From: Kineococcus rhizosphaerae
Lineage (GTDB): Bacteria > Actinomycetota > Actinomycetes > Actinomycetales > Kineococcaceae
Direction of reading: 5' to 3'
Length of the DNA stretch: 40,310 nucleotides
NCBI RefSeq assembly: GCF_003002055.1
Contig: NZ_PVZF01000020.1
Location: 1 to 40,310, forward strand
The notes beneath the pieces were generated by a model, which was given only the letters and a program-made list of their open reading frames with translations, made no database searches and had not been told where the DNA came from. Below, one piece after another: positions 490 to 8,835 of the stretch; positions within the stretch are counted from its first letter, which is position 1, and each line of letters begins with the position of its first letter. The translations under genes and the position numbers were made by a program.

Positions 490-501
490 TAGACTCGCCC
501 G
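490..501 (+). promoter_or_regulatory. putative -10 element for a leaderless transcript
   Basis: TAGACT at 490-495 matches the actinobacterial TANNNT -10 element. It is followed by 6 nt and then the GTG start at 502, so transcription would begin at or next to the start codon. No Shine-Dalgarno sequence is visible. This would let the nitrilase-like gene be expressed independently of the permease upstream. Inferred from sequence only. Confidence 0.45.
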
Positions 502-1344
502 GTGCCCGACCCCGTCCGCATCGCCGCTGCCGCAGGGCACTTCGGCCGTGACCTCGACCGCGGGCTGAGCAAGGTCCTGTCCATCGTCGCCGAGTGCCGC
601 GTGACGGGGACGGACCTCCTGGTGCTGCCGCACGGTGCGCTCGGCGGGTACCTGGCCGACCTCCGGGACCCGGAGGAGTCCGGCCTGCCCCCGGCCCTGG
701 ACGCCGAGGACGCGGTGTTCAAGGAGGTGCGCCGCGCGTGCGGCCCGATGACGGTGTGCCTGGGTTTCACCGAGGTGGTCCAGACGCACGGGGCGACCGT
801 CCACCACCCCGCCGCGGTGTGCCTGCACGGCGACGGCGTCCTGGGCCGGCACCGCAAGATCCACCTGCCGCCGGGTGAGGCGCGCCACTACGCGGCGGGC
901 GACCGCCTGGCCGCGTTCGACACCCCCGTCGGCAGGGTGGGCATGCTCATCGACTTCGACAAGACCTTCCCGGAGGCTGCGCGCACCCTCGCCGTCCAGG
1001 GTGCGCACACGATCGCGTGCCTGTCGGCCTGGCCGGCCAACGTCACCGACCGCACCTCGCGACTGCCCCAGGACCGGCAGTCGCGGCTGTTCGACCTCTA
1101 CGACTGCGCCCGGGCCGCGGAGAACCAGGTGGTCTGGGTGTCCTCCAACCAGACGGGGATGCACGGCTCCCTGCGCTTCCTCGGGCAGGCCAAGGTCGTG
1201 AACCCCGGCGGCGACGTGCTGGCCCGGACGGGTTCGAAGGGCGGCCTGGCGGTCGCCGAGATCGACGTGGAGGCCGAGGTGGCGCGCGCACGCCGCACGC
1301 TGCACCACCTGGCCGAGCGCCGCGGTGAGGTCTACGAAACGTGA
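502..1344 (+). CDS. nitrilase-fold pseudoenzyme (catalytic Glu and Cys replaced)
   Basis: A 280-aa carbon-nitrogen hydrolase family protein, full length for the fold. It is clearly a paralogue of the nitrilase at 5339-6208; both share an N-terminal (A/G)xFGRDLD segment, HRKxHxPxGE, YAAG, FDTPVGR, the RFDLYD/LFDLYD stretch, and the AExQVVW and GSLRF blocks. Two of the three nitrilase catalytic residues are missing: the Glu position in LPE is His44 (LPHGALGGYL), and the nucleophile position in ICYD is Asp151 (LIDFDK). Lys119 and the second structural Glu126 remain. The frame is intact and conserved throughout, so it looks maintained rather than decayed. It could be a structural partner of the active nitrilase, since nitrilases assemble into spirals and filaments, or a ligand sensor; both are inference. 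GTG start chosen for the -10 element 6 nt upstream. Confidence 0.85.
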   Translation: MPDPVRIAAAAGHFGRDLDRGLSKVLSIVAECRVTGTDLLVLPHGALGGYLADLRDPEESGLPPALDAEDAVFKEVRRACGPMTVCLGFTEVVQTHGATVHHPAAVCLHGDGVLGRHRKIHLPPGEARHYAAGDRLAAFDTPVGRVGMLIDFDKTFPEAARTLAVQGAHTIACLSAWPANVTDRTSRLPQDRQSRLFDLYDCARAAENQVVWVSSNQTGMHGSLRFLGQAKVVNPGGDVLARTGSKGGLAVAEIDVEAEVARARRTLHHLAERRGEVYET

Positions 1345-1357
1345 AAGTCTTCCCGAG

Positions 1358-1373
1358 GTAACCAGACCGAAAC
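1358..1373 (+). promoter_or_regulatory. putative GlnR box
   Basis: GTAAC at 1358-1362, six bases, then GAAAC at 1369-1373 matches the a/b half of the actinobacterial GlnR consensus (GTnAC-n6-GAAAC). A second, weak half may follow (GGCAT at 1380, GAAC at 1385). It lies in the 52-bp gap before the amidohydrolase, the only gap in the cluster with promoter-like sequence besides 490-501. GlnR is the global nitrogen regulator of actinomycetes, which fits the nitrogen-starvation family names of the downstream genes. Binding is inferred. Confidence 0.5.
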
Positions 1374-1396
1374 AGTTAGGGCATGAACTATCCCTC

Positions 1397-2233
1397 GTGC
1401 CCCTCACACCCGACGCACGCACCTTCGACGCTCACCGCCACATCGGCCGGTTGCCGGCGTACCCCTTCTACGGGGGCCCGCCGGTCAACCCCGACACGAG
1501 CGCCCGCGACCAGATCGCCGACCTGCTCGACGACCTCGACCGCGAGGGCACCGAACGCGCCCTGCTGCTGCCCAACTACGGCGTTCCGGTCGCCGGCGCC
1601 AGCTTCGCCCTCAACGAGCTCGTGCTCGAGACCACGGCGAAGGACGACCGGTTCGTCTGCGGCCTGTGGACCTCCCCGCGGGCCCAGGACGCCGAGCTCA
1701 CCGACGCCGCGCTGGCCCTGGCCGGTGAGCGAGGGGTCGTCGCGCTCAAGACGAGCTTCCTGCTCGGCGGCGGGGTCGACGACCCGACGTCGCAGCCCCA
1801 GATCGAGAAGGTCTTCGGCGTCGCCCGGGAACGGGACCTCGTCGTCCACGTCCACACCTCCCCCGGGGCGGCCTCGGACATCGACGAGGTGGGCAAACTC
1901 GTGGACCGCTACGGCGACGACGTGCGGATCCACCTCGTCCACCTCGGCGGGGGCATGAGCGCCCACATCAAACTCATCGGCGGCCGGTTCTTCGACTGGG
2001 TCGAAGCCGGCAAGAAGGTCTACACCGACACCAGCTGGGCGATCGGCTTCGCCCCCCGCTGGCTGGCCGCCGAGATCGAGCGGCGCGGGATCGGCGCCGA
2101 CCGTGTCCTGTTCGCCTCCGACGAGCCGTGGGGCGACCACGCGGGAGAGCTCGCCCGCCTGCGGGCCGCCTCGCAGAACCCCGAACTCGTCCGGATGTTC
2201 CTGCAGGACAACTACACCACCCTGTACGGCTGA
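1397..2233 (+). CDS. amidohydrolase-2 family metal-dependent hydrolase
   Basis: A 278-aa TIM-barrel amidohydrolase (PF04909-like). Visible metal-site elements are an N-terminal HxH within FDAHRHIG, a Lys/Ser strand (LKTSFLL), His residues in VHVHTSPG and HLVHLGGG, and a C-terminal catalytic Asp in FASDEPWG. The family hydrolyses or decarboxylates small carbon-nitrogen or carboxylic substrates; the substrate here is unknown. The open frame extends upstream to 1325, overlapping the pseudoenzyme gene, but family similarity starts at about FDAHRHIG, so I chose the in-frame GTG at 1397. No ribosome binding site is seen for it, so the start is uncertain. It sits between the GlnR-like box and nitB, which suggests it opens the nitrogen-starvation operon and handles a substrate or product of the pathway. 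Confidence 0.75.
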   Translation: MPLTPDARTFDAHRHIGRLPAYPFYGGPPVNPDTSARDQIADLLDDLDREGTERALLLPNYGVPVAGASFALNELVLETTAKDDRFVCGLWTSPRAQDAELTDAALALAGERGVVALKTSFLLGGGVDDPTSQPQIEKVFGVARERDLVVHVHTSPGAASDIDEVGKLVDRYGDDVRIHLVHLGGGMSAHIKLIGGRFFDWVEAGKKVYTDTSWAIGFAPRWLAAEIERRGIGADRVLFASDEPWGDHAGELARLRAASQNPELVRMFLQDNYTTLYG

Positions 2234-2281: not shown

Positions 2282-2836
2282 GTGACCACGACCACCGCCG
2301 CCCCCGCCACCACGACCGAGATCGACGAGCTCATCAAGGCGAACATCGCCAAGTCCCTCGCCGAGGTCCCGCACCCGGTCAAGGAGAAGGGCGAGGACCT
2401 GTACGGCAAGACCAAGGTCTTCCCCGACTACCAGGCCGAGAACGGGGAGAGTTACTTCACCCTCGTGCACGGCATCGCCCACGAGTCGTCGGTGAGCTTC
2501 GTCGCGATCCTGCAGGCCACCCGCGCCCTGCGGAAGGGGTACGACTCCGCGATCTACTTCTACGGTCCCGGGGCCATGAACTGCATCGCGACCCGCGGGT
2601 TCCCCACCGTGGGCGACTCCGGGTTCCCCGGTGAGCAGAACGTCAACGGCGCCCTGGAGACGTTCATCGCCGAGGGCGGGACCGTCTACTGCTGCCGGTT
2701 CGGGCTCGCCCTGCACGGCAACCGCGAGGAGGACCTCATCGCCGGGGTCGTCCCCTGCCACCCGCTCGACGTGCAGGACGCGCTCATCCACTACGCCCGC
2801 AGGGGCGCCATCATCAACTCGACCTACAACCTCTGA
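2282..2836 (+). CDS. nitB: NitB, MSMEG_0572/Sll0783 family nitrogen-starvation protein
   Basis: A 184-aa soluble protein recognised as the MSMEG_0572/Sll0783 family, the first conserved gene of Nit1C clusters. Characteristic blocks are the FTLVHGIAHESSVSF-like region, IYFYGPGAMNC, GFPxxGDSGFPGEQN, and a cysteine-rich YCCRFGLALHG. No transmembrane segment or signal peptide is seen. The biochemical role is not established; in Synechocystis the sll0783 gene is reported to matter for the nitrogen-starvation response. The GTG start at 2282 has a GAGGAG ribosome binding site about 8 nt upstream. The stop overlaps the next ATG (TGATG), so it is translationally coupled to nitD. Confidence 0.88.
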   Translation: MTTTTAAPATTTEIDELIKANIAKSLAEVPHPVKEKGEDLYGKTKVFPDYQAENGESYFTLVHGIAHESSVSFVAILQATRALRKGYDSAIYFYGPGAMNCIATRGFPTVGDSGFPGEQNVNGALETFIAEGGTVYCCRFGLALHGNREEDLIAGVVPCHPLDVQDALIHYARRGAIINSTYNL

Positions 2837-3915
2837 TGACCTGCGAGAACGCCGTCGGGACCCGGGTGGACGTCGCGATCCGCGGCGTCCGCCTGGCGGC
2901 CCCCGTCCGCCGCACGGGTGGTGCGGGGCCGAGCGACGACGGCCACGTCGTCCTGGACGGTCTCGCCTCGGCGATCCCGTTGCGCCCCGACAGCCCGTAC
3001 CTCGTGCGCGACGGCCGGCTCCTGCTCGAGAGGACCGGCGCGGTCACGGACCTCGGGGTCACGGTCGAACCCGTCGCGCGGCCGCGGTTCTACGACCTGC
3101 GGACCGCCGACGGCACCCCCTACGAGCAGATCGCGAAGCTGCACGGGCGCGACGTGCTGGCCACCACCGTGGTGCAGACCTGCTCGCGCTACGCCCCCGA
3201 GAACCGCTGCCGGTTCTGCGCCGTCGAGGAGTCCCTCACCGCGGGCGCGACCATCGCGGTCAAGACCCCCGCGATGCTCGCCGAGGTCGCCCGCGCCGCC
3301 GTCGACCTCGACGGGATCCGGCACGTCGTCATGACGACGGGCACCTCCACGGCTCCCGACCGCGGCGCCCGGCACCTCGCCCGCTGCGTCCGGGCGGTCC
3401 AGGAGGCCGTCCCCGGCCTGCCCGTGCAGGTGCAGTGCGAACCGCCCGCGGACCCGGCCACGATCACCGAGCTGAAGGAGGCCGGGGCCGCCTCCATCGG
3501 CCTCCACGTCGAGTCCCTCGACGACGCGGTCCGGCGCCGCTGGATGCCGGGCAAGTCGACGGTGCCGCTGGCGGAGTACTGGGCCGCGTGGACCGAGGCC
3601 GTGCGGGTGTTCGGCCGCAACCAGGTCTCCACGTACCTGCTGGTGGGGCTGGGCGAGGACCCCGACGAACTCGTCGAGGGCGCCGAACGCCTGATCGAGC
3701 TCGGCGTCTACCCGTTCGTCGTCCCGTTCCGGCCGCTGGCGGGAACCCTCGCGGTGGACGTCGACGGCGCCCACGCCCCCGACCCGGCCGTCCTGGAGGA
3801 CGTCACCCGCAGGGTCGCGGCAGCCCTGCGGGCCGGCGGGATGCGCGGTGCGGACCAGATGGCCGGTTGCGCGGCCTGCGGGGCGTGCTCGGTCCTGCAG
3901 AACCTCAGCGCCTGA
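2836..3915 (+). CDS. nitD: NitD, MSMEG_0568 family radical SAM protein
   Basis: A 359-aa radical SAM protein. The SAM-cluster motif is C116-x8-C125-x2-C128 (CSRYAPENRCRFC), which is longer than the common CxxxCxxC spacing and is, from memory, typical of this Nit1C family. The core barrel follows, with MTTGTS, the QVQCEPP strand, HVESLD and the QVSTYLLVGLGE region. The C-terminus carries C345-x2-C348-x2-C351 in a GCAACGAC stretch, possibly ligands of an auxiliary cluster or metal. The reaction is unknown; within the cluster it presumably builds or modifies a nitrile- or cyanide-related metabolite with the GNAT and AIR-synthase-like partners. ATG overlaps the nitB stop. Confidence 0.9.
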   Translation: MTCENAVGTRVDVAIRGVRLAAPVRRTGGAGPSDDGHVVLDGLASAIPLRPDSPYLVRDGRLLLERTGAVTDLGVTVEPVARPRFYDLRTADGTPYEQIAKLHGRDVLATTVVQTCSRYAPENRCRFCAVEESLTAGATIAVKTPAMLAEVARAAVDLDGIRHVVMTTGTSTAPDRGARHLARCVRAVQEAVPGLPVQVQCEPPADPATITELKEAGAASIGLHVESLDDAVRRRWMPGKSTVPLAEYWAAWTEAVRVFGRNQVSTYLLVGLGEDPDELVEGAERLIELGVYPFVVPFRPLAGTLAVDVDGAHAPDPAVLEDVTRRVAAALRAGGMRGADQMAGCAACGACSVLQNLSA

Positions 3916-3947: not shown

Positions 3948-5342
3948 ATGCCGTTCGACCTGCCGGTCCTGGCCGGCCTGCCGCGCCAGCGCACGGCCTT
4001 CCACGTCGAGGTCGCCGACGACGCCGCCGAACGCGCCCACCGCCGGCTGCGCCGCGAAGCCTTCGTGGCCGAGCAGCGGTTGTTCTCGACCGACGACCAC
4101 GACGACGCGGACGACGACCCGCGCCGTCGGGTCCTGGTGGCCCGCGCCGCCGACGGCACGGTCGTCGGCGGTGTCCGGCTGGCGCCCTGCACGGCCGACG
4201 ACGTCGGCTGGTGGCGCGGCAGCCGGCTCGTGGTGGCCCCCGGGGCCCGCACGCTGGGCGGGGTCGGCAGCGCCCTCGTCCGGGCCGCCTGCGCGCACGC
4301 GGAGGAGCTCGGCGCCCTGCGCTTCGAGGCCACCGTGCAGGCACGCAACACCGTGCTGTTCCGCCGCCTCGGCTGGCAGCACGTGCGCGACGTCGTCGTG
4401 CAGGGCACCCCGCACGTCCTCGTCCGGTACCCGGTGGACCGCCCCCGCCGGCTGGCCGAGGCGACCAAGGCCGCGCTGGCGGGTGTCCTGGACGGTCTCG
4501 TGCAGACCCCGGAGGGTTTCCGCGGCGACGACGGTACCCCGGTGCCGGGCACGGACGTCGTCGCCGCCTGCGACGCGATCCTGCCCTCCCTCGTCGAGCG
4601 GGACCCCGAGTGGGCGGGCTGGTGCGCGGTCCTGGTGAACGTCAACGACCTCGCGGCGATGGGGGCGAACCCGGTCGGGCTGCTGGACGCGCTGGGCGCC
4701 CCCACCGCCGGGCACGCCCGCCGGGTCGTGGCGGGGCTGCGCGCCGCGAGCCGCGCCTGGGGCATTCCCGTGCTCGGCGGCCACACCCAGTTCGGGGTGC
4801 CCGCCGCGCTGTCGGTGACCGCCCTGGGCCGCACGCCCGACCCGGTCCCCGCGGGCGGGGGCCGTCCCGGGCACGCCCTGTCCCTGACCGTCGACCTCGA
4901 CGGTTCCTGGCGGCCGGGCTACTCCGGTTCGCAGTGGGACTCCACCTCGCACCGGTCCCCCGGGGACCTGCGGCGGATGGGGTCCTTCGTCGCCCGCACC
5001 CGCCCCGCCGCTGCGAAGGACGTCAGCATGGCGGGTCTGCTCGGCACCGTCGGGATGCTCGCCGAGGCCAGCGGCGTCGGCGCCGAGATCGACGTCACCT
5101 CCGTCCCGCGCCCGCCCGGGACCACCGTCGGCGACTGGTTCACCTGCTTCCCGGGTTTCGGGATGGTGACCGCCGACCTCCCCCGCCGCACCCCGGCTCC
5201 CGCCGGACCGGCCACCACCGCGACCGTCGGCCGCCTGCACGCCGCCTCCTCCCCGGACGACCGGGGGGTGTCGCTGCGCTGGCCCGACGGTGAGGTGACC
5301 CGGGTGATCCCGGGTCCCGTCACAGGAATGGGAACCGCATGA
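3948..5342 (+). CDS. nitEF: NitE-NitF fusion: GNAT acetyltransferase + AIR synthase-like domain (MSMEG_0567 type)
   Basis: A 464-aa two-domain protein. Residues about 15-165 are a GNAT N-acetyltransferase domain (FVAEQRLF, VGGVRLAP, RLVVAP then GVGSALV as the acetyl-CoA loop, QARNTVLFRRLGW). Residues about 170-464 are AIR-synthase/SelD/ThiL-like (VLVNVNDLAAMGANPVGLLDAL as the ATP and metal-binding part, VLGGHTQFG, RPAAAKDVSMAGLLGT). In cyanobacteria and proteobacteria these are two genes (NitE/Sll0786 and NitF/Sll0787); fusion is known in actinobacteria (MSMEG_0567). Start ATG at 3948 has GAAGGGG upstream. The much longer open frame upstream, to 2631, is only high-GC read-through. The stop overlaps the nitrilase start (ATGA). 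Confidence 0.9.
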   Translation: MPFDLPVLAGLPRQRTAFHVEVADDAAERAHRRLRREAFVAEQRLFSTDDHDDADDDPRRRVLVARAADGTVVGGVRLAPCTADDVGWWRGSRLVVAPGARTLGGVGSALVRAACAHAEELGALRFEATVQARNTVLFRRLGWQHVRDVVVQGTPHVLVRYPVDRPRRLAEATKAALAGVLDGLVQTPEGFRGDDGTPVPGTDVVAACDAILPSLVERDPEWAGWCAVLVNVNDLAAMGANPVGLLDALGAPTAGHARRVVAGLRAASRAWGIPVLGGHTQFGVPAALSVTALGRTPDPVPAGGGRPGHALSLTVDLDGSWRPGYSGSQWDSTSHRSPGDLRRMGSFVARTRPAAAKDVSMAGLLGTVGMLAEASGVGAEIDVTSVPRPPGTTVGDWFTCFPGFGMVTADLPRRTPAPAGPATTATVGRLHAASSPDDRGVSLRWPDGEVTRVIPGPVTGMGTA

Positions 5343-6208
5343 CCAGACTGGCCGCCGCCGCCGAGAACTTCGGCCGCGACCTCGACGCCGCCTACGCCAC
5401 CGTCGAACGACTCCTCGCCGCGTCGCGGGGGGCGCACCTGCTGGCCCTGCCCGAGGCCTGCCTCGGCGGGTACCTGTCCTCCCTGGGTTCCAGCGAGGAC
5501 CGCGGGACGACCGGCTCGCGCCGCGCCCGCTCCGGGCCGCCGCCGCTGCGCCTGGACGGCCCCGAACTGCGCCGGGTCGCCGAACTGGCCGGGGACACCG
5601 TCGTCGTCCTCGGCCTGTGCGAGGACGGGCAGGACGGTGACCTCTACAACACCGCCGTGGCCCTCACGGGGGACGGGATCCTCGGCGTCCACCGCAAGGT
5701 CCACCAGCCGCTGGGCGAGAACCTCTCCTACGCGGCGGGGTCGGTCTTCGAGGCGTTCGACACCCCGGTCGGCCGCATCGGCCTGCAGATCTGCTACGAC
5801 AAGGCGTTCCCCGAGGCGGCCCGGGCGGCCGCCCTCGACGGCGCCGAGATCGTCGTGAGCATCTCCGCCTGGCCCGGGTCGCGCACCGCCTCCTCCGCCG
5901 ACCTCGCGCAGGACCGCTGGACGAAGCGGTTCGACCTGTACGACCGGGCCCGCGCGCTGGAGAACCAGGTCGTCTGGGTGGCGGCGAACCAGGCGGGGAC
6001 GTTCGGGTCGCTGCGGTTCGTCGGCAGCGCGAAGGTCGTCGGCCCCGGTGGGGAGGTCCTGGCCGCCACCGGTGTCGAAGCGGGCCTGGCCGTCGCCGAC
6101 GTCGACGTGGCGGCCGAGCTCGCTGCGGCCCGCCGGTCGATGTTCAACCTGCGCGACCGTCGTCCCGACACCTACGGAACCCTCGTCCGGGAGCACGCGC
6201 GTGCCTGA
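5339..6208 (+). CDS. nitC: NitC, nitrilase of the Nit1C/Sll0784 (Nit6803) family
   Basis: A 289-aa nitrilase that converts nitriles to carboxylates and ammonia. The full catalytic triad is visible: Glu39 in LPEACLGGYL, Lys120 in VHRKVHQPLGE, and nucleophile Cys152 in QICYDK; the auxiliary Glu127 is also present. The length is slightly shorter than typical cyanobacterial members. It is the only member of the pair in this window that can be catalytic; the gene at 502-1344 has lost Glu and Cys. In Nit1C organisms this enzyme is required for growth on cyanide, reported for Pseudomonas, although the true substrate remains debated. The start overlaps the nitEF stop by 4 nt, and its stop overlaps nitG. 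Confidence 0.92.
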   Translation: MTRLAAAAENFGRDLDAAYATVERLLAASRGAHLLALPEACLGGYLSSLGSSEDRGTTGSRRARSGPPPLRLDGPELRRVAELAGDTVVVLGLCEDGQDGDLYNTAVALTGDGILGVHRKVHQPLGENLSYAAGSVFEAFDTPVGRIGLQICYDKAFPEAARAAALDGAEIVVSISAWPGSRTASSADLAQDRWTKRFDLYDRARALENQVVWVAANQAGTFGSLRFVGSAKVVGPGGEVLAATGVEAGLAVADVDVAAELAAARRSMFNLRDRRPDTYGTLVREHARA

Positions 6209-6497
6209 GACGACGTTCACCGTCCGCTGGCCCGACGACACCGTCCAGCACTGCTACTCCCCCTCCCTGGTGGTGCACGACCACCTCAGCGCGGGCCACG
6301 ACTACCCGGTCGAGGAGTTCACGGCCCGCTGCCGCACGGCCCTGACCGAGGCCAGCGACCGGGTCCGCGCCCGGTACGGGATGGCCTGCACCGCCGCCCT
6401 GGCCCAGTTGTCCGACATCGAGCGGCGCGCGGCCGGGCAGGCCGGCCGGGTCCACGTCCTCGCCCTCGAACCCCCTCTGCCGCAGGAGACACCGTGA
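6201..6497 (+). CDS. nitG: NitG, MSMEG_0570 family nitrogen-starvation protein
   Basis: A 98-aa soluble protein matching the small MSMEG_0570 family found only in this gene neighbourhood. Visible family features are FTVRWPDDTVQHCYSPSLVV, a YPVEEF block and RTALTEASDRVRARYG. No known fold or catalytic residue can be assigned. The GTG start at 6201 lies 8 nt inside the nitC gene, and the TGA overlaps the GTG start of nitH. This arrangement implies coupled translation and possibly fixed stoichiometry. It may be an accessory or binding subunit; that is inference. Confidence 0.88.
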   Translation: MPETTFTVRWPDDTVQHCYSPSLVVHDHLSAGHDYPVEEFTARCRTALTEASDRVRARYGMACTAALAQLSDIERRAAGQAGRVHVLALEPPLPQETP

Positions 6498-7738
6498 CCG
6501 AGCACCACGACGTGCTGATCGTCGGAGCCGGCCAGGCCGGCCTCGCCCTCAGCCACCACCTGACCCGCCGCGGCGTGGACCACGTCCTGCTCGAACGCGA
6601 CACGGTCGCCCACGAGTGGCGCGACGGTCGCTGGGACGCGTTCACCCTCGTGACCCCGAACTTCCAGTGCCGGCTGCCCGGGTTCTCCTACTCGGGGGAG
6701 TTCGGCGGCACCGACCCCGACGGTTTCATGCCGCGCGACGAGGTCCACCGGTTCCTGCGCGCCTACGCGGCCAGCTTCGACCCGCCCGTGCGCGAAGGCG
6801 TCGAGGTGCACCGCCTGTGGCGCGACGCCGACGTCTTCCGGCTGGAGACGACGGCCGGCGGTTTCAGCGCCGACCAGGTCGTCATCGCCACCGGCGGCTA
6901 CCACCAGCCAGTCGTCCCCGCCTTCGCGGCGCGCATCCCCGAGACGGTGACGCAACTACACAGCTCCGCGTACCGCAGCCCGTCCGCGCTGCCCGACGGG
7001 GACGTCCTCGTCGTCGGGTCCGGGCAGTCCGGCGCGCAGATCGCCGAGGACCTGCACCTGGCCGGCCGCCGCGTGCACCTCGCCGTGGGTCACGCCCCCC
7101 GCTGCGCCCGCCGGTACCGCGGCCGCGACTGCATCGCCTGGCTGGAGGAGATGGGCGTCTACGACGTCACCGCCGCCGAGGTGCCCGGCGGGGCCGCCGC
7201 GCAGGAGAAGACGAACCACTACATGACCGGGCGCGACGGTGGGCGGGACATCGACCTGCGCCGGTTCGCCCTCGAGGGCATGGGCCTGTTCGGCCGGCTC
7301 GACGACGTCCGCGACGGTGTCGCGCACTTCAGCCCCACCCTGCGCGAGGCCCTCGACCACGCCGACTCCGTCGCCGAGAGCATCAAGGACTCCATCGACC
7401 GGTACGTCGCGGCGCTGGGCCTCGACGCCCCCACCGAGCCCCGGTACAGCCCCGTGTGGGCCCCGCCGCAGGAGGAGGCCACGACGCTGGACCTGGCCGG
7501 GGTGGGCTCGGTCGTGTGGAGCGTCGGCTACCGCGCCGACCACCGCTGGGTCGAGCTCGGGGTGTTCGACGGCCGGGGCCGTCCTCGCCAGACCCGCGGC
7601 GTCACCGGGACGGACGGGTTGTTCTTCCTCGGCCTGCCCTGGATGCACACCTGGGGGTCGGGACGGTTCGCCGGCCTGGCCCGGGACGCGGAGTTCCTGG
7701 CCGACCGCATCTGCCTGCGGTCCCCGGTCCGCGCGTGA
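6494..7738 (+). CDS. nitH: NitH, MSMEG_0569 family flavin-dependent oxidoreductase
   Basis: A 414-aa flavoprotein monooxygenase-type oxidoreductase. The FAD-binding GxGxxG lies at residues 11-16 (GAGQAG) and a second dinucleotide site for NAD(P)H at about 176-181 (GSGQSG). An ATGG-type motif (VIATGGYHQP) and the C-terminal FFLGLPWMHTWGSGRF block fit this family. It is expected to oxidise the pathway metabolite using FAD and NAD(P)H; the substrate is not known. GTG start overlaps the nitG stop (GTGA), with a GCAGGAG ribosome binding site inside nitG. Confidence 0.9.
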   Translation: MTEHHDVLIVGAGQAGLALSHHLTRRGVDHVLLERDTVAHEWRDGRWDAFTLVTPNFQCRLPGFSYSGEFGGTDPDGFMPRDEVHRFLRAYAASFDPPVREGVEVHRLWRDADVFRLETTAGGFSADQVVIATGGYHQPVVPAFAARIPETVTQLHSSAYRSPSALPDGDVLVVGSGQSGAQIAEDLHLAGRRVHLAVGHAPRCARRYRGRDCIAWLEEMGVYDVTAAEVPGGAAAQEKTNHYMTGRDGGRDIDLRRFALEGMGLFGRLDDVRDGVAHFSPTLREALDHADSVAESIKDSIDRYVAALGLDAPTEPRYSPVWAPPQEEATTLDLAGVGSVVWSVGYRADHRWVELGVFDGRGRPRQTRGVTGTDGLFFLGLPWMHTWGSGRFAGLARDAEFLADRICLRSPVRA

Positions 7739-8835
7739 GGGTCGCCCTCACGACGTACTCGACGAAACCCCGCGGCGGGGTCGTCCACACCCTCGCCCTC
7801 GCCGAGGCCCTCGTCGACCTCGGCGTGGACGTGTCGGTGTGGACGCTGGGCCGCGGTGGCGACCAGGCGTTCTTCCGGCCCGTCGACCCCCGCGTCGACG
7901 TGCGGGTCGTGGAGTTCGCTGCCCGCGAGGGCGAGGGCGAGGACGTGGGCGCGCGCATCCTGCGCTCCATCGACGTGCTGCGCGAGGGGTTCGACCCGGC
8001 CCGCCGGTCCGGGGAGTACGACGTGGTGCACGCCCAGGACTGCATCAGCGCGAACGCCGTCGGCCGCTGCGTGCGCACCGTCCACCACCTCGACACCTTC
8101 ACGACCCCTGAACTGGCGGCCTGCCACGAGAAGGCGATCGTCGAACCGTTCGCCCACGTGTGCGTCTCGGCCTCGGTGGCCCGTGAACTGACCGACGGGT
8201 GGGGGCTGCAGCCCACGGTCATCCCGAACGGGGTCGACGCCGGGCGGTTCGTCGGAGCGGACCCGGCGCCCTGGCGCGACCGTCTCGGTCGCTACGTCCT
8301 GGCGGTCGGGGGCATCGAACCCCGCAAGGGCAGCCAGGACCTGCTGCGCGCCGTCGCGCGGTTGCGGGCCGGGCTGCCCGACGTCGAACTGGTGTTCGCC
8401 GGCGGCGAGACGTTGTTCGACTACTGCGACTACCGTGAGGAGTTCGACCGGCTCGCCGTCGAGCTCGGCGTCCACCCGCAGGTGCTGGGACCCGTCGCTG
8501 AGGACGACCTGCCCGGGCTGGTCGCCGGCGCCGCCGCGATGGGCTTCGTGTCCACGAAGGAGGGTTTCGGCCTGGCGGCCATGGAGGCGCTGGCCGCGGG
8601 GGTCCCCCTGGTGACGCGGGACCTGCCCGTGCTGCGCGAGGTGTTCGACGGTGCTGCGCTGTTCGCCGACGACCCGGCGTCCATCGCCGCCGCTCTGCGG
8701 ACGGCGGTCGAACAGCCCGACCTCGACCGGACGGAGCGTGGACGACGACTCGCGGCCCGCCACACGTGGTCGGCCGCAGCTCGGGCGCACCGCGACCTCT
8801 ACGAGCGTCTGGTCACCGGAGCGGGCCGGAACTGA
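7735..8835 (+). CDS. MSMEG_0565 family glycosyltransferase (GT4-like)
   Basis: A 366-aa GT-B fold glycosyltransferase. The N-terminal domain has the PRGGVVHTLALAEAL sugar-acceptor loop. The C-terminal nucleotide-sugar domain has the VIPNGVD and GGIEPRKGSQDLL blocks and the KEGFGLAAMEALAAG motif, whose Glu residues bind the donor. No signal or membrane segment is seen. The start GTG overlaps the nitH stop (GTGA), so it belongs to the same transcript. This family is a known extra member of the cluster in actinobacteria and suggests that the final product is glycosylated. It is the last gene; a hairpin follows. Confidence 0.88.
   Translation: MRVALTTYSTKPRGGVVHTLALAEALVDLGVDVSVWTLGRGGDQAFFRPVDPRVDVRVVEFAAREGEGEDVGARILRSIDVLREGFDPARRSGEYDVVHAQDCISANAVGRCVRTVHHLDTFTTPELAACHEKAIVEPFAHVCVSASVARELTDGWGLQPTVIPNGVDAGRFVGADPAPWRDRLGRYVLAVGGIEPRKGSQDLLRAVARLRAGLPDVELVFAGGETLFDYCDYREEFDRLAVELGVHPQVLGPVAEDDLPGLVAGAAAMGFVSTKEGFGLAAMEALAAGVPLVTRDLPVLREVFDGAALFADDPASIAAALRTAVEQPDLDRTERGRRLAARHTWSAAARAHRDLYERLVTGAGRN

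Follow-up and report, generated by a model that had tools for sequence, protein, structure and literature searches.

The locus considered here raises the question of whether a nitrilase-like gene that has lost its catalytic residues, and that shares a cluster with a catalytic paralogue, encodes a pseudoenzyme maintained by selection and, if so, what such a protein does. The window, i.e., the whole stretch of DNA that was analysed, is one entire contig of 40,310 bases from a 5.6-Mb genome of Kineococcus rhizosphaerae. A sequence-only reading of it had proposed a maintained pseudoenzyme encoded with its catalytic paralogue, and this central proposal stood, with an intact catalytic triad in none of 117 family members, an omega (dN/dS) of about 0.05, and the active paralogue in 48 of 49 genomes that carry the gene. 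A tightly conserved protein without the cutting residues probably does another job, though databases label it as an ordinary enzyme.

Nitrilase fold and catalytic residues

The pseudo-nitrilase gene occupies positions 502..1344 of the forward strand as an open frame of 280 amino acids with a GTG start, stop codon included, so that the frame is intact as first read, and orthologues of it were found. It belongs to the nitrilase superfamily by its match to PF00795 (CN_hydrolase; residues 16-257, 89.4 bits, cut-off 23.2) and by the fold of its AF2 model (pLDDT 88.6, with 85.2 for the paralogue, both being monomer models), for which the best fold matches listed are a D-carbamoylase (TM 0.83) and an archaeal amidase. 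The catalytic tetrad of nitrilases is given as Glu-Lys-Glu-Cys, or E-K-E-C (PMC6214922). Residues read by script place His44 (codon 631..633, forward strand) at the site of the catalytic Glu and Asp151 (952..954, forward strand) at that of the Cys nucleophile, and the catalytic Lys119 (856..858, forward strand) is kept, compared with Glu39-Lys120-Glu127-Cys152 in the catalytic paralogue (5339..6208, forward strand). The whole fold, the retained Lys, and both replacements were therefore confirmed, and the second Glu of the tetrad, Glu126 (877..879, forward strand), which the earlier reading had not mentioned, is also present. An alignment slip or chance as the source of His44 and Asp151 was ruled out, as two alignments to solved archaeal amidase chains put His44 opposite the Glu and Asp151 opposite the nucleophile site, in line with the alignment to the paralogue (49% identity over 285 aligned columns, E 2e-83) and with the PF00795 match.

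With the fold kept, the catalytic residues gone, and the gene under selection, the protein would, judged by its sequence, be a pseudoenzyme; it lacks the Glu-Lys-Cys set of a catalytically active nitrilase or amidase, and Cys occurs in 0 of 117 family members. The aliphatic amidase model NF009802, which corresponds to the printed label of the homologue MSMEG_0566, scores only 20 bits against a cut-off of 427, and TIGR04048, the Nit6803/Nit1C nitrilase, is absent from the NCBIfam matches of the pseudo-nitrilase. The paralogue had been taken for a Nit1C enzyme encoded beside the pseudo-nitrilase. Its Glu39-Lys120-Cys152 triad was correctly read, but it reaches 37.3 bits of the 502.6 required by TIGR04048 and belongs to another family; similarly, it lies in the same cluster, but 4 kb downstream and not adjacent. 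The name 'NitC' as used here therefore denotes a position and not a family.

Residue pattern of the family

Relatives were collected by a locus scan, in which 528 stretches matched and 490 encoded a relative, with the best 80 of the 490 being kept, and by genome samples; the two sets overlap and their counts are not summed. The scan patterns covered residues 191-208, away from the catalytic sites and uninformative about them, so the residue findings are not circular. The best 80 loci come from Nocardioides, Aeromicrobium, Rhodococcus, Mycobacterium, Mycolicibacterium, Williamsia, Nocardia, Herbidospora, Frankia, one Kineococcus, and others. Residues were counted in 235 distinct proteins, 118 with E-K-E-C and 117 of the dead kind, after the exclusion of two generic hydrolases encoded in the same K. 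rhizosphaerae genome (L005 and L006), which reduced the E-K-E-C rows from 120 to 118; three paralogue-type rows were also dropped, two being too short (L031 and L164) and one having a stop or unread letters (L150).

Lys and the Asp at the Cys site are invariant in the dead kind (117/117 each), Glu126 is replaced once, by Asp (116/117), and the first Glu site takes five states, giving the tetrads D-K-E-D (96 proteins), H-K-E-D (11), G-K-E-D (7), and Y-K-E-D, Q-K-E-D, and D-K-D-D (one each). Three further members from the class sample have D-K-E-D (twice) and Q-K-E-D (once). No intermediate between E-K-E-C and x-K-[ED]-D was found among the 235 proteins, and no stop codon interrupts any of the 117 pseudo-nitrilase frames. 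The suggested check on conservation of His44 and Asp151 consequently had a divided outcome: Asp151 is fixed, but His44 is a minority state at a site where Asp is the rule, and the conserved feature is Lys, Glu126, and Asp151. An intact triad among orthologues of close relatives had been named, along with relaxed selection, as an observation that would indicate simple decay, and 0 of 117 clade members have one.

Besides Asp151, the family differs from the paralogue by T155 for Ala, Q193 for Trp (W194 of the paralogue), L196 for an invariant Arg (R197), and A206 for Leu (L207). Three of these diagnostic residues, Q193, L196, and A206, lie inside a predicted helix of residues 190-208 (1069..1125, forward strand), which has the top conservation among 14 stretches compared, with a mean of 0.93 in the pseudo-nitrilase vs 0.79 in the paralogue. 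This helix is presumably the dimer face, as is general in the nitrilase superfamily.

Origin, selection, and distribution

In a FastTree analysis of 237 proteins, all 117 dead proteins stand alone on one side of a branch with a support of 94, and the next larger group (support 89) adds four intact E-K-E-C nitrilases (L166, L167, L169, and L174). A quick IQ-TREE run with an outgroup (75 rows) likewise recovered the dead clade (31 rows, SH-aLRT 96) and joined it to the four intact proteins (86); the active cluster paralogues do not form one resolved clade there, with two from outside the class (L168 and L171) branching apart at an unresolved fork. Both trees still held rows that were later dropped (L006 being labelled NitC in the IQ-TREE run), and the dead clade holds none of them. 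The four sister nitrilases share Q193 and other majority states with the pseudo-nitrilase but differ in keeping the E-K-E-C tetrad, and all of them belong to organisms outside the class. The 18-19 kb around three of the four contained no detected cluster gene; the fourth (L169) has its start 241 bases away from the end of a contig, and the 9 kb after it contained none either. An asparagine synthetase gene directly follows two of them, L167 and L169 (L192, 10617-12143, and L196, 1111-2673, respectively), with Asn_synthase scores of 257 and 248 bits in two different families, which hints at an amide substrate for the intact sister branch. On the evidence of these trees, the actinomycete pseudo-nitrilase family is of single origin, and its simplest history would be a duplication, one loss of catalysis with the change of Cys to Asp, and long retention thereafter.

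The claim that selection maintains the gene was borne out by dN/dS estimates from our own pairwise GY94 fit to 15 within-genus pairs. The median omega is 0.048 for the pseudo-nitrilase (range 0.020-0.122) and 0.049 for the active paralogue, and omega = 1 was rejected in 15 of 15 pairs, all far below 1; single omegas are rough, since many pairs approach saturation at silent sites, with a fitted t of up to 4.5. The NG86 method gave 0.13-0.47 for the pseudo-nitrilase and 0.15-0.29 for the paralogue, values whose excess over GY94 is taken as saturation of silent sites. Across 68 loci with both genes, the mean pairwise identity is 0.705 for the pseudo-nitrilase vs 0.635 for the paralogue, and 1944 of 2278 pairs, which are not independent, show the higher identity for the former. 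Within Kineococcus, the pseudo-nitrilase diverges faster, with 68-87% identity vs 79-96% for the paralogue. In K. rubinsiae, the gene is located at the other end of the cluster, after the glycosyltransferase gene, and has thus moved within the genus yet been kept; another Kineococcus genome (G007), assembled in 500 contigs, has a cluster that lacks it.

In the genome samples, where absence means no match at the search E-value and some assemblies consist of hundreds of contigs, the pseudo-nitrilase was found in 6 of 11 Kineococcus genomes (active paralogue in 7 of 11), in 16 of 396 genomes of the order (the six Kineococcus included), all 16 with the paralogue, and in 33 of 394 genomes of the class, 32 of them with the paralogue, with 16 more having the active paralogue only. 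The phylum sample (396 genomes) added one carrier outside the class (G1089), again with the paralogue. Pooled over the samples, an active E-K-E-C paralogue accompanies the pseudo-nitrilase in 48 of 49 genomes, with the first Glu of one of these paralogues (G601) falling beyond a contig end.

Gene cluster and regulation

Downstream of the pseudo-nitrilase, the main operon starts with an amidohydrolase gene (Amidohydro_2 by Pfam match; 1394..2233, provisional start codon) and continues on the same forward strand with genes recognized by NCBIfam for an MSMEG_0572/Sll0783 family protein (NitB; 2282..2836), an MSMEG_0568 family radical SAM protein (2836..3915), and a fused GNAT/AIR-synthase-like protein (MSMEG_0567; 3948..5342). 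The catalytic paralogue is next, followed by an MSMEG_0570 family protein (NitG; 6207..6497, provisional start codon), an MSMEG_0569 family flavin-dependent oxidoreductase (6494..7738), and an MSMEG_0565 family glycosyltransferase (7735..8835). With TIGR04042, 04043, 04044, 04045/04050, 04046, and 04047 all over their cut-offs, the locus is an MSMEG_0565-0572 (gpr, Nit1C-like) cluster.

A GlnR-like box, GTAACCAGACCGAAAC, lies at 1358..1373 of the forward strand, between the pseudo-nitrilase and the main operon; it is assigned by its likeness to the GlnR consensus. Strict matches to this pattern number two in the window vs 0.10 expected from shuffles, the second being inside a gene. Similar boxes occur 23-36 bases before the amidohydrolase gene in 13 of 34 scan loci that start with it, a count made without a shuffle control. 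The pseudo-nitrilase lies upstream of this box, unlike in most loci, and would thus need a promoter of its own. The promoter-like element claimed for it was seen weakly and by eye, as TAGACT at 490..495 (forward strand), six bases before the start codon, which resembles the -10 motif of leaderless genes; a TAGACT-like element was seen by eye in three of six Kineococcus orthologues, that of the window included. No sigma-70 consensus or terminator was found in a scan of positions 1-2400, and TAGACT is the sole promoter candidate of the pseudo-nitrilase in the window. No match came from Rfam and tRNA scans of the whole window. Further upstream (1-451), the contig begins in what appears by eye to be the end of an ABC permease gene (56 residues without a Pfam match); then comes an amidase gene reduced to a 3' fragment (C-terminus of PF01425, 31.5 bits), perhaps a remnant next to the cluster.

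Cluster context and candidate partners

The detected cluster genes are on one strand in 80 of 80 scan loci, and 77 of these contain the active paralogue; the genomes with the remaining three loci (L106, L124, and L131) encode it elsewhere than at the pseudo-nitrilase locus. At a second site in two of these genomes (those of L106 and L131), it adjoins the flavoprotein gene, apart from the pseudo-nitrilase, which counts against the explanation preferred below. The next detected cluster gene upstream of the pseudo-nitrilase is that of the flavoprotein in 60 of the 80 loci, the AIR gene in 11, the active nitrilase in five, NitG in three, and the glycosyltransferase in one; downstream, it is the glycosyltransferase in 78.

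The active paralogue occurs without the pseudo-nitrilase in 16 of 48 class-sample genomes, which counts against the explanation preferred below, and 15 of these 16 belong to one Frankia-like family (f36). NitG was not found in the fetched stretch in 14 of these 15 genomes, and no MSMEG_0569 flavoprotein exceeded its cut-off there. As the pseudo-nitrilase is missing together with NitG and the flavoprotein in this family, another step could be the true partner. One Frankia-like cluster without the pseudo-nitrilase and MSMEG_0569 (L148, 8769-10322; G528) has the gene of another FAD-binding protein (FAD_binding_3, 28.8 bits) placed between those of NitC and the glycosyltransferase, and in a further cluster (L164, ~7405-8267; G145), where the pseudo-nitrilase was not found, the active-paralogue gene is broken and gave a match in two pieces. 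Conversely, one genome (G422) has the pseudo-nitrilase without the paralogue, radical SAM protein, flavoprotein, glycosyltransferase, or any other cluster match.

A mirror-tree test over 70 loci showed no signal specific to NitC, with a partial correlation of -0.10 with the paralogue; the suggested heteromer with NitC accordingly gained nothing from co-divergence. The highest partial correlation, 0.34, is with the flavoprotein, in a setting where neighbour genes share history. Dependence of the pseudo-nitrilase on the pathway has good support, with the flavoprotein as a serious candidate for a partner other than NitC. A plasmid of Rhodococcus qingshengii (pLP1, NZ_CP088909.1 219336-238163; L199) also carries the cluster, with both hydrolases (E-K-E-C and D-K-E-D), each annotated only as a carbon-nitrogen hydrolase family protein. 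The plasmid is typed as mobilizable and IS3-family transposase genes flank the cluster on both sides, which may explain its spread.

Proposed role and alternative explanations

The reading preferred here, held with little more than even confidence, is that the protein is a non-catalytic, ligand-binding accessory of the MSMEG_0565-0572 (gpr, Nit1C-like) pathway, perhaps co-assembling with the active nitrilase. Judged from the chemistry of the family, the loss of the Cys thiol, joined in some members by that of any acidic base, would rule out the nitrilase or amidase reaction. A salt bridge of Asp151 with Lys119 probably keeps the pocket charged and intermediate-like, and the vestigial pocket may bind the class of molecules that the cluster's nitrilase uses or releases. 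Contact by way of helix 190-208, the presumed and conserved dimer face, could let this accessory subunit tune or feed the active enzyme; in genomes with its gene inside the operon, nitrogen starvation would induce it along with the rest. In plant nitrilases, an inactive Cys-to-Ala subunit is reported to impose its own specificity on active subunits (PMC6214922), and these mixed subunits, as a precedent, were counted for the accessory role. A more specific version, offered tentatively, is that of a dedicated dead subunit whose pocket, with invariant Lys and Asp and nearly invariant Glu, mimics a charged catalytic intermediate; with a pathway metabolite bound there, the subunit would control the active nitrilase, or else the flavoprotein step, under nitrogen starvation. 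If true, this would be a natural mixed system of active and dead nitrilases, printed until now as an amidase.

The alternative that the gene is a decaying duplicate of a nitrilase gene has a negligible probability: the catalytic Glu and Cys are both lost and the gene diverges faster than the paralogue within Kineococcus, but an omega of about 0.05, uninterrupted frames in all 117 members, fixed Asp and Lys, and one clade spread over many families refute simple decay. A new enzyme, in which Asp151 with Lys119 and Glu126 would carry out a different, possibly non-hydrolytic reaction of the pathway, is rather unlikely. Asp151 and Lys119 show the invariance of catalytic residues, the protein is better conserved than the active paralogue over the 68 loci, and one lineage lacks it along with both NitG and the MSMEG_0569 flavoprotein, as could be expected of a pathway enzyme. 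Yet the general-base site takes Asp, His, Gly, Gln, and Tyr, which is hard to square with catalysis there, and no other chemistry appears among the 50 fold matches listed of 199 (E <= 0.001). We also know of no nitrilase-superfamily enzyme with Asp as the nucleophile, which counts against this explanation.

Also unlikely is a homomeric ligand-binding or sensing protein without contact to the active nitrilase, e.g., one that holds an intermediate for the flavoprotein or glycosyltransferase step. The genes of these two are its usual next neighbours (60 and 78 of the 80 loci), but the glycosyltransferase also occurs in clusters without the pseudo-nitrilase. The flavoprotein is over its cut-off in 31 of 33 genomes with vs 2 of 22 without the pseudo-nitrilase (Fisher p 9e-11, ignoring kinship), an association that comes mostly from one lineage and has exceptions, with one of the two present without the other in some genomes (G416; G022, G431, and G007) and with the flavoprotein beside the active paralogue, apart from the pseudo-nitrilase, in two. 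Partial co-divergence peaks with the flavoprotein, but such co-divergence is common to neighbour genes anyway; the genome with the pseudo-nitrilase alone (G422) also favours a homomeric protein. Very improbable is a role in capping nitrilase spirals or setting their length. A conserved helix is kept at the place of the dimer face, and the region-1 loop, part of the C-surface in spiral nitrilases (PMC4700190), is short and nearly fixed (18 residues in 109 of 117 proteins; paralogue median 25, range 16-51). However, the intact sister nitrilases have an equally short loop (15-20), as do some coexisting active paralogues (e.g., that of G176), the paralogue is outside the Nit6803 family, the pseudo-nitrilase is close to amidases and carbamoylases, and spiral formation by the paralogue is purely hypothetical; the control of filament length suggested earlier thus found no clear support.

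Under the preferred reading of a ligand-binding accessory, the invariant pocket offers a direct handle on the role of the cluster in actinomycetes, since the pathway should consume or produce the bound ligand.

Comparison with known systems

The gpr cluster of Mycobacterium smegmatis (MSMEG_0565-0572) has the same eight genes as the cluster described here (PMC6039565). Its operon is described as GlnR-dependent and more than 500-fold induced in nitrogen-free medium, and its deletion as making cells sensitive to peroxide (PMC6039565). MSMEG_0566 is listed as an aliphatic amidase (PMC4222082; PMC4617892), appears in a table of the GlnR study PMC4222082, and is presented as a putative aliphatic amidase with a possible direct contribution to nitrogen assimilation (PMC6039565); MSMEG_0571 is listed as a carbon-nitrogen hydrolase in papers. 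In the part of PMC6039565 that was available, no mention of catalytic-residue loss in MSMEG_0566 was found. Seven scan loci are from Mycobacterium or Mycolicibacterium, and in five of them (L098, L109, L110, L141, and L143) the active nitrilase gene comes after NitB, and the dead one has the GNAT/AIR gene on one side and the glycosyltransferase on the other; a sixth, cut locus (L124) agrees for the dead gene, and the seventh (L145) has another order. By synteny, with an order in the five loci that agrees with these printed labels and with the NCBIfam names of six of the eight genes, MSMEG_0571 is the active and MSMEG_0566 the dead protein, and the residues of the pseudo-nitrilase family argue against a direct role of MSMEG_0566 in nitrogen assimilation. 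A gene of a strongly nitrogen-induced operon, printed among the enzymes of C-N bonds, would thus very probably be unable to perform that reaction. For MSMEG_0571, reading through TGA as a selenoprotein has been put forward (PMC6039565). Among distinct genes of the present set, NitC ends with TGA in 112 of 118 and with TAG in 6 of 118, to which the read-through idea would not apply, and TGA also ends 110 of 117 dead genes.

Literature on dead nitrilases, the clusters, and the homologues, searched through titles and the starts of abstracts, yielded no description of this dead nitrilase among the papers listed, and the words pseudoenzyme and inactive are absent from PMC11049912, on NitC. Nit1C clusters (Podar et al., 2005; PMC1199592), as far as the consulted part of that source goes, share genes for a NitB-like protein, radical SAM, GNAT, AIR synthase, NitG, and a flavoprotein with the cluster described here, but encode a single subfamily 1 nitrilase, whereas the present cluster encodes an active enzyme of another family and a second, dead one. 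The second Lnt homologue BCG_2279c (PMC3850990) similarly has a substituted nucleophile and an active copy in the same genome; however, it belongs to the apolipoprotein N-acyltransferase branch and has Cys replaced by Ser, and not by Asp as here. The NIT4A/NIT4B2 heteromers of grasses (PMC5154151; PMC6214922) are, though plant enzymes, a precedent for two nitrilase paralogues in one complex, and the actinomycete pair would allow the laboratory finding that active nitrilase subunits can take their specificity from dead ones to be examined in a natural setting.
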